Position numbers and translations under genes: made by a program. Shown here piece after piece: positions 32,856 to 34,531 of a stretch of 41,257 bases of DNA. The DNA is from Candidatus Roizmanbacteria bacterium RIFCSPLOWO2_01_FULL_40_13 (GTDB taxonomy: Bacteria > Patescibacteriota > Microgenomatia > UBA1406 > GWC2-37-13), in contig MGAN01000014.1 of assembly GCA_001789745.1 (NCBI GenBank), forward strand, positions 20,628-61,884, given 5' to 3'. Every line of letters begins with the position of its first letter. Positions within the stretch are counted from its first letter, which is position 1. The notes beneath the pieces are model-generated. The model did no database searches and was not told the origin of the DNA. It worked only from the letters and a program-made list of their open reading frames with translations.

Positions 32856-33175
32856 TGATTAAAAACTCTAAACACTAAATTCTAAACTCTAATCAATTTT
32901 CAAAATTCCAAATAACAAAACTTTTTAATTTAACGTGAATTACGAAACTAATAAACGTCATTCTGGTAAGCTGAAATGAAATTTCAACGCATCCAGAATC
33001 GTTGCTAAGTTAAATACATCTTGCGTAATTTCGACGCAATTCGTTAGATTCTGGACAAGCCAGAATGACGAATTACTTGTTAATAGAGCCTAAAGAGATT
33101 CGTAATTCGCATTTATTTATATTTTTGGTAATTTGGATTTGTTTAGAATTTAGAAATTAGAATTTAGAGTTTTAT
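32856..33175. repeat. Three nested inverted repeats between two pilin genes
   Basis: Outer arms 32860-32919 and 33121-33173 are TTTAG-rich (AAACTCTAAA, TTCTAAAC against their complements). Middle arms are GTGAATTACGAA (32935-32946) and TTCGTAATTCGC (33099-33110). Inner arms are CGTCATTCTGG (32956-32966) and CCAGAATGACG (33060-33070). No gene is seen; the next gene's start codon lies at the edge of the right outer arm. Confidence 0.8.
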
Positions 33176-33661
33176 ATGCGAAAGAAAAAGGGGTTTACTC
33201 TGGTCGAGCTTATGATATTTATGGGAATGTTTTCCATTCTCTTGGTTGTTTTTAGCCAAATTTTTGGACAGATTGTGGATACGCGGCTGGAATCCGAAAG
33301 TCATTCCAGCGTGGTTCAGGACGGCAATTATCTTCTCAACCGCCTGATGTATGATATCGTTATTGCAAGCGGTATCAATCTTCCCGCAACGGTCGGTAGT
33401 TCGGATACCAACTTGAATATTACCGTAGCCGGCGAAGATCATATCTATAGCCTGAGCGGCGACAACCTCGTACTCATTATCAATAGCGACGTCTACCAGC
33501 TCAACAGCGTCAATACGACTATCTCAAATTTGAATTTTCAAAGAATCGGAAATGACGACGGCAAAGATACTATACGATACAGCTACACTGTCACAAGTAA
33601 AATCGAGCGCCCGGCAGGTCCCGAATCGCAGGATTATCAAACAACGGTAGGATTGAGATAA
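33176..33661 (+). CDS. Prepilin-like protein (PilW/GspJ type)
   Basis: A 161-residue pseudopilin with the standard KKKGFTLVELMIFMGMFSIL leader and helix, followed by a beta-rich domain. Like PilW/GspJ, it continues with a helix (HSSVVQDGNYLLNRLMYDI). The start codon follows the outer arm of the nested repeat with no obvious Shine-Dalgarno. Confidence 0.85.
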   Translation: MRKKKGFTLVELMIFMGMFSILLVVFSQIFGQIVDTRLESESHSSVVQDGNYLLNRLMYDIVIASGINLPATVGSSDTNLNITVAGEDHIYSLSGDNLVLIINSDVYQLNSVNTTISNLNFQRIGNDDGKDTIRYSYTVTSKIERPAGPESQDYQTTVGLR

Positions 33662-33668
33662 TTATATA

Positions 33669-34140
33669 TTAAACCCTAATCCCTAAATCCTAAATTCTAA
33701 ACAATATTTAATGATCAAACCCCAAAATTCAAAAAAGTTCGATTTAGAAGATAGAACATTCAAATTCGCAAAAAAATGTCGAACCCTTGTTAAAAAAATT
33801 CCAAAAACTATTAGTAGTATTGAGGATGGAAAACAATTAATTAGATCATCGGGATCAGTTCATTCCAACTATATAGAAGCAAATGAGGCATTTAGTAAAA
33901 TTGACTTCTACCACAGAGTTAAAATCTGTAGAAAAGAAGTTAAGGAAAGTCGATCATGGTTAAAGTTGTTGGATTTGAATCGAGGTGATTCTCTAGACTT
34001 AGAAAGAAATAGATTAACTCGAGAGGCCGAAGAATTAATGAGAATTTTTGGATCAATTATTACTAGAGAAAAAAAGTTTTGAAAATTTGATTTTAAGTTT
34101 TTGAATTTGTTTAGAACTTAGAGTTTAGGGTTTAGAATTT
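33669..34140. mobile_element. Possible cassette: four-helix-bundle gene between TTTAGGG-like inverted repeats
   Basis: Left arm 33669-33702 (TAAACCCTAATCCC, TAAATTCTAAAC) and right arm 34109-34140 (GTTTAGAACTTAG, AGTTTAGGGTTTAGA) are imperfect inverted complements bounding the gene at 33711-34082. The same repeat type bounds the gene-less nested repeat at 32860-33173. Mobility is inferred from this arrangement. Confidence 0.55.
33711..34082 (+). CDS. Four-helix-bundle protein (23S rRNA intervening-sequence protein family)
   Basis: A 123-residue protein matching the S23/IVP four-helix-bundle family: FKFAKKCRTLVKKIPKTI, QLIRSSGSVHSNYIEANEA and RVKICRKEVKESRSWLKLL are typical helices. Family members are encoded in 23S rRNA intervening sequences and in many CPR intergenic sites; the Avd protein of diversity-generating retroelements is related. 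No reverse transcriptase is here. It breaks the pilin gene series, is AT-rich and is bounded by inverted repeats, so it is probably an insertion unrelated to pilus function. Confidence 0.85.
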   Translation: MIKPQNSKKFDLEDRTFKFAKKCRTLVKKIPKTISSIEDGKQLIRSSGSVHSNYIEANEAFSKIDFYHRVKICRKEVKESRSWLKLLDLNRGDSLDLERNRLTREAEELMRIFGSIITREKKF

Positions 34141-34168
34141 ATTATCATTTTTTGATTTAGAAAGTTAA

Positions 34169-34531
34169 ATGAAACGTGGTCAAACTTTAATTATGCTTTT
34201 GGTCTTTATGATTATAGCTATCACCGTGACTACGGCAGCTACCGCATTGATCTTGGTTAATTCAGCCAGTGCTCAAAAAATGGAAGGCGGTATCATCGCC
34301 TACAGCGTAGCGGAAAGCGGGATTGAAAATGGTCTGCTCAGACTGCTCCGCAATCCCTTTTATACCGGTGAAACTCTAAATTTGGACGAAGGCACTGCTA
34401 CAATCACGGTCACCGGCAGCAACCCCTACACCATTACTTCAACCGGTCAAAGCGGCAGTTTTACCCGTGTTTTGCAGGTAGTAGTAAACTATAATGGTAA
34501 TATGACCATTGCTTCCTGGAATGAGACTTAA
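34169..34531 (+). CDS. PilX-like minor pilin or secreted membrane-anchored protein
   Basis: A 120-residue protein starting MKRGQTLIMLLVFMIIAITV, a membrane helix with a PilX-type GQ(S/T)LI start but no Glu at +5. It continues AYSVAESGIENGLLRLLRNPF, the conserved helix of PilX-type pilins, then a small beta domain. Sits in the pilin run, 2 bases before the next gene. Confidence 0.75.
   Translation: MKRGQTLIMLLVFMIIAITVTTAATALILVNSASAQKMEGGIIAYSVAESGIENGLLRLLRNPFYTGETLNLDEGTATITVTGSNPYTITSTGQSGSFTRVLQVVVNYNGNMTIASWNET

Follow-up and report, generated by a model that had tools for sequence, protein, structure and literature searches.

Proteins of the S23 (IVP) family have been known for decades from the intervening sequences (IVSs) of rRNA genes, and structures have been solved; we know of no function assigned to the family. 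Avd, a protein of diversity-generating retroelements, acts with RNA and a reverse transcriptase. The S23 family (PF05635) and its presence in rRNA IVSs have been described (PMC4990558), S23 ORFs are scattered among the rRNA insertions of CPR bacteria (PMC11270868), and Zhang and Ye 2013 (PMC3936711) reported 23S_rRNA_IVP genes in cas loci, with the motif GxxRxxxSxxxNxxE. Within a literature search of incomplete coverage, which took in few subscription papers or preprints, we did not come across any description of heptad arms flanking S23 genes, or of such an element moving at the DNA level outside rRNA.

The stretch of DNA analyzed here (the window; 41,257 nt, G000:C14:20628-61884) comes from a 1.04-Mb genome in 21 contigs that is 89% complete and that, judging from its size and named relatives, apparently belongs to the Patescibacteria (CPR). 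In this stretch, pilin-type genes of one co-oriented operon lie on both sides of an S23 gene (33711-34082, + strand), which encodes a 123-aa protein in sense with the operon and matches PF05635 at 47.1 bits (E 3.2e-12), above the curated cut-off of 33.8. Upstream lies a pilin-like gene with an N-methylation signal (33176-33661, +; PF07963), and downstream the next host-operon gene (34169-34531, +), which abuts or nearly abuts that pilin gene in element-free congeners. An AlphaFold model of the protein (pLDDT 90) is a four-helix bundle whose best Foldseek matches were 2rld, 2gsc and 4dwl, with TM scores of ~0.75–0.79 to 2rld and 2gsc, and Avd was among the nearest solved folds (4dwl, 8ub7). Two solved homologues crystallized with five chains, and 2gsc has been reported as a homopentamer (PMC4990558). 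Across 130 S23 proteins, Q42, R45, S49, N53 and E56 were 99–100% invariant and E79 99%; the motif given for the "cas-associated" genes matches the invariant R45, S49, N53 and E56 of the window protein.

A previous sequence-only reading had placed this gene, between imperfect inverted repeats and interrupting the pilin series, at 33669-34140, which is correct to within a few bases. The best inverted repeat pairs 33666-33734 with 34077-34145 (69 nt, 71% complementary). Its left arm (33666-33710) is composed of CTAAAYY heptads facing the right arm, the match running on to 33734 inside the start of the ORF, and its right arm (34077-34145) of TTTGAATTTG-TTTAGRR heptads complementary to the left. 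The repeats had been called TTTAGGG-like, and while they do form facing inverted arrays, their units are degenerate TTTAGRR/CTAAAYY heptads that do not keep a strict TTTAGGG. Two copies of ATTAT (33661-33665 and 34141-34145) form a possible 5-bp direct repeat, a candidate target duplication that is weak in such A+T-rich sequence. Facing-strand clusters of the unit occurred at only two places in the 41-kb window, the S23 cassette and a non-coding cassette at about 32860-33173 that has the same TTTAGRR arms and no S23 gene and lies between a 653-aa gene and the next pilin gene. The RNA fold of this second cassette scored z −7.3. Folding of the S23 cassette transcript, proposed in the sequence-only reading, also beat shuffled sequences, though modestly (z −2.1) because the sequence is A+T-rich.

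The proposed link to 23S rRNA IVSs is supported in part. The window element shares with IVSs of 23S and 16S rRNA that carry an S23p ORF (Coxiella, Leptospira, CPR) the PF05635 protein, a length of ~430–500 bp, a sporadic distribution and the layout, with the gene in the loop of a long terminal stem (whose fold z is modest here). It differs in lying between operon genes, in its degenerate heptad arms, in its dispersed gene-less derivatives and in having filled and empty sites at the DNA level; no 23S match was found in any S23 locus, and the window element lies in a pilin operon. Avd likewise shares the fold (4dwl, 8ub7), although no RVT_1 reverse transcriptase was found in the window genome (89% complete).

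We compared the pilin operon with that of five congeners, and found that operon order was kept and the S23 cassette missing in all five. Four of the five have the two pilin genes overlapping or separated by at most ~70 nt at the S23 junction, while G002 has a different non-coding heptad hairpin there. The junction before the preceding pilin gene, where the second cassette sits, was short and empty in three congeners and held another palindrome type in two. The suggestion that the gene and its repeats form a mobile cassette is thus borne out by its absence from the orthologous operon and by the association of repeats and S23 genes across bacteria described below; neither conservation of the position across distant relatives nor a lack of the repeat-gene association elsewhere, either of which would speak against it, was found.

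The motif TTTAGRRTTTAG occurred 55 times in the window genome, mostly as divergent (−)...(+) pairs, whereas its reversed control occurred 15 times, and arms of the TTTAGRR kind are not a product of chance. Counts were also high in G001 (37), G002 (23) and G003 (23), and low in G004 (2) and G005 (4). S23 genes of the window subfamily lie inside TTTAG arms at other sites in G001 (69% identical) and G002 (56% identical), and in G003 the arms stand beside what is apparently the same EamA-type gene as in G002, with S23 reduced to its first codons. Among 37 TTTAG elements collected from four genomes of the genus, most are ~150-nt gene-less hairpins. Twenty-two gene-less copies aligned end to end. 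As in MITEs, the copies are short and numerous, are bounded by terminal inverted repeats and contain no gene for a transposase; RNAalifold predicted no consensus structure for the 22. One gene-less copy (L010) starts with the S23-like codons MIKIQKSKKY, so some, at least, of the gene-less copies are derived from elements that carried S23. Interrupted or decayed S23 copies were also seen in G000 (C18:7306-7488, C13:23341-23654 and C18:96750-96866).

Other small palindromic sequences occur in and around these elements. In the second cassette a palindrome CGTCATTCTGG...CCAGAATGACG is nested at 32956-33070, and palindromes of the CGTCATTC...GAATGACG type, nested in TTTAG cassettes there and in L038, L205, L010 and L030, constitute a second, REP-like family of hairpin elements whose interiors are sometimes longer. 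The palindromic stretch TATACCC..CTTAGTTGATTTTGCAAA...TCAACTAAGGAGGG..TATA, shared by L005, L007, L030 and L032, is another small dispersed element; it breaks up two S23 genes and is found within or next to TTTAG cassettes. At L203 (1072-1608; G003:C3), as read by eye, a GIY-YIG-like ORF with GTCATGCTG/GATCCCG palindromes replaces S23 in TTTAG arms; this one arrangement suggests that GTCAT palindromes may carry GIY-YIG genes in the way that heptad arms carry S23.

The gene-less copies resemble MITEs and REPIN/RAYT systems in being short, dispersed and hairpin-forming and in depending on a protein encoded elsewhere, but the S23 elements differ from both in having 7-nt arrays of varying sequence and coding copies that carry S23 in place of a transposase; the CGTCATTC palindromes nested in them resemble REP-type units more closely. 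S23 is the whole coding content of the window element, which has no transposase and so is not an insertion sequence. We found no autonomous transposon with matching ends, the coding relatives found carrying S23 only, and no Y1_Tnp in the TTTAG elements read, though Y1_Tnp is present in the genomes. Long, internally repetitive terminal inverted repeats are shared with Foldback-type transposons (e.g. Galileo, PMC3573991), which unlike the S23 elements are eukaryotic and large, have a transposase and lack S23. Intergenic 7-nt arrays are also known as the STRR heptanucleotide repeats of cyanobacteria and the TAACTGA repeats of Beggiatoaceae (PMC4679880), both described as direct repeats, unlike the facing arms at S23; the Beggiatoaceae paper (PMC4679880) makes no mention of S23 or a helix-bundle protein.

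The S23 family is widespread beyond the genus: in the family, 60 of 72 genomes contained PF05635, with 1–10 copies each, as did 156 of 287 genomes sampled from the phylum, while phage records held no detectable S23 relative. Facing repeats in S23 flanks were scored relative to shuffled sequences that preserved dinucleotide composition, with a threshold of z 3 and with cross-pairing controls as well. Facing arms above this threshold flanked 30 of 36 S23 loci in the family and, in the phylum, 25 of 30; across many phyla they flanked 63 of 78 named loci (32/38 in CPR, 31/40 in others), the named loci being best-scoring matches and not a random sample. A controlled run gave 109 of 128 testable S23 genes (median z 7.2) compared to 6 of 135 neighboring genes (median 0.1), so the association of repeats and S23 genes that the sequence-only reading had suggested checking is present well beyond the window. 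Arms matched themselves at lags of 7, 14 and 21 nt (0.59, 0.54 and 0.50, expected 0.32) and at no other lag. One exception in arrangement is L198 (1390-1970), on a Pseudanabaena plasmid between cas6 and cas4, where the heptads (AAAAGCT/AAAAGCC) are direct and not inverted. S23 genes also lie immediately upstream of ORFs with pilin-like N termini in other genomes (L055, L058, L122), and in L055 one reading frame spans S23, the 7-nt array and a pilin-like protein (394 aa).

The unit of the arms varies by locus (AGTATTA, AGCTTTG, TCAGAAG, GGGAACA, TTTAGRR), and its content tracks protein identity (Mantel r = 0.27, reached in 0 of 2000 permutations), compared to r = 0.05 for distal flanks. Taken separately, CPR (r = 0.34) and the other phyla (r = 0.43) each had this co-variation of unit and protein, which was absent between CPR and non-CPR elements (r = −0.04). 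It may therefore reflect common descent of gene and arms and not recognition; its presence within sets and absence between them indicates a pairing kept over moderate divergence, and we do not claim a universal recognition code. Our best inference from this co-variation within clades and from the fold shared with Avd is that S23 may bind its folded repeat arms.

Filled and empty sites gave the closest view of insertion. Seven such comparisons were made, with a clean 5-bp target duplication at two, and the finest came from Nostocales plasmids, where empty sites are ~90–97% identical. At site 1, Trichormus has AAAAA-GTAAT-[element]-GTAAT-TAACAAAT where relatives have AAAAAGTAATTAACAAAT, with flanks ~97% identical; site 3 reads AGG-TTCTA-[element]-TTCTA-GTTATG and has empty counterparts on four plasmids. 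Both 5-bp duplications (GTAAT and TTCTA) touch the stop codon of the upstream gene. At site 2, two plasmids have S23, one has a gene-less hairpin of the same unit type and one has other sequence. Site 4 shows a 3-bp duplication, while sites 5 and 6 (~91–93% identity) lost ~8–12 nt with no duplication. At site 7, which compares the Picosynechococcus cmr2-S23-cmr3 operon with PCC 7002, the junction is ambiguous. A population test for flanking direct repeats or target duplications, made without empty sites, was negative. One 416-bp element lies gap-free and 82% identical at two unrelated plasmid places (L197, L234), and the similarity stops at the arms. These filled and empty sites in cyanobacterial plasmids show that the element has moved from one operon junction to another.

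We consider it probable that the S23 gene and its facing TTTAGRR arrays constitute one mobile DNA element of ~480 bp with MITE-like derivatives, in which S23 would recognize the arms. The element would have inserted at the DNA level between two pilin genes, with S23 presumably expressed by read-through from the host operon, since S23 genes almost always lie in sense. The protein probably assembles as a ring, as the five-chain crystals of its two solved homologues suggest. By recognizing the arms of its element, either as a hairpin or as an array of repeats, this ring would promote the copying or joining of that element or license it, while gene-less copies may persist as MITE-like hairpins that use S23 produced elsewhere. 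Candidates for the cutting and joining enzyme are S23 itself or a host or foreign recombinase that S23 recruits or admits. RVT_1, Y1_Tnp, rve and DDE_Tnp_1 were tested as partners and rejected, as none tracks the elements. A bolder version, which we put forward only tentatively, is that S23 itself mobilizes the elements, which would form a large class of bacterial transposable elements not described before; its ring would recognize the facing 7-nt arrays and direct or perform insertion of the element. Such a ring would consist of four-helix bundles and have no nuclease or recombinase fold known so far, the residues Q42, R45, S49, N53 and E56 together with E79 would be its active or joining site, and rRNA IVSs and the "cas-associated" S23 genes would represent special sites at which members of this class have landed.

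Possible, if doubtful, is the alternative that an ordinary transposase, of host or foreign origin, reads the arms and moves the element wholly in trans, with S23 a passenger or accessory that serves, for example, in hairpin protection or regulation. The element has no recognized catalytic domain, the genus carries transposases of other elements (Y1_Tnp in all six genomes, DDE_Tnp_1 in G000 and G002), and a 5-bp duplication, if real, is typical of many DDE enzymes. However, dN/dS between S23 copies at unrelated sites was 0.10–0.14 (leaving out the pairs L196/L231 and L200/L232, which were in the wrong reading frame), indicative of purifying selection, and S23 is nearly constant inside the arms in many phyla, which argues that the element needs it. 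With decayed, truncated or interrupted copies at some sites (L224, L233, L236, L203), selection apparently acts on the element and not on the host operon. In addition, rve is missing in G000, G001, G003 and G004 and DDE_Tnp_1 in G001 and G003, all of them S23-rich, and a single enzyme acting in trans would not read all of the arm units that differ among S23 subfamilies.

The sequence-only reading had suggested that the cassette uses mRNA or intergenic sites in place of rRNA, and an element that enters mRNA by reverse splicing or retro-insertion and is released from RNA by RNase III would be an mRNA counterpart of the IVSs. It would share with rRNA IVSs the protein family and a layout in which the stem is cut by RNase III (PMC4990558), and with diversity-generating retroelements the fold of Avd. 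It would also account for orientation, as S23 was in sense with its neighbors in 96 of 99 loci (3 antisense) where both neighbors were co-oriented, as scored by a simple ORF caller. Gene-less TTTAG copies, oriented by the asymmetric unit in one arm, had no such sense bias, although numbers were small (7 sense, 8 antisense). S23 in sense 96 to 3 together with gene-less copies lying either way argues for insertion at the DNA level with read-through expression, and the simplest reading is that the element inserts into DNA in either direction and that S23 copies survive only where read-through expresses the gene. No RVT_1 reverse transcriptase was found in the six genomes of the genus (G000, 89% complete, and its congeners) or in 20 genomes of the 20-species genus g9, which carry several S23 copies, and therefore a reverse transcriptase is not needed in them; the two target-site duplications likewise suggest staggered cuts in DNA. 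The use of mRNA sites was thus not borne out, and we regard insertion at the RNA level as improbable.

That S23 is instead an ordinary operon gene with a pilus, CRISPR or ribosome function, whose hairpins regulate expression, is very improbable. S23 does sit inside operons in sense and was earlier listed among cas-locus genes (18 genes, PMC3936711), but its operon partners are unrelated between loci, it is missing from orthologous operons, it has 1–10 copies per genome in most genomes of the family, and decayed, truncated or interrupted copies occur. In CRISPR operons, S23 lies between cmr2 and cmr3 in PCC 7003 (L242, 1400-1920) and between cas6 and cas4 in L198, and the operon on pAQ6 of PCC 7002 is empty, so that the reported cas association may be one of insertion only. 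Many intergenic regions of bacteria do contain heptanucleotide repeats (PMC4679880), and the arms in the window are rich in A+T, but that the arms are merely the low-complexity or slipped-strand tandem repeats usual in such genomes, unrelated to S23, is scarcely credible given their inverted placement at S23 and at so few control genes, their excess over composition-preserving shuffles and cross-pairing controls, and their travel with the gene in the G001 and G002 copies and the 416-bp plasmid element.

We regard the element described here as a selfish element of the S23/IVS type, and there is a real chance of a new mechanism. In some phyla a large fraction of the genomes sampled encode S23/IVP proteins, and the architecture of facing heptad arms, shared by most sampled S23 genes in many phyla, suggests a role for the family. 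Tying S23 to a defined DNA element, with heptad arms, gene-less derivatives, read-through and filled and empty sites, makes the function of the protein directly testable. On this view rRNA IVSs, the supposed cas-associated copies and at least part of the enigmatic bacterial heptanucleotide repeats could share one origin, and transposition might proceed by a mechanism that involves no recognized transposase.
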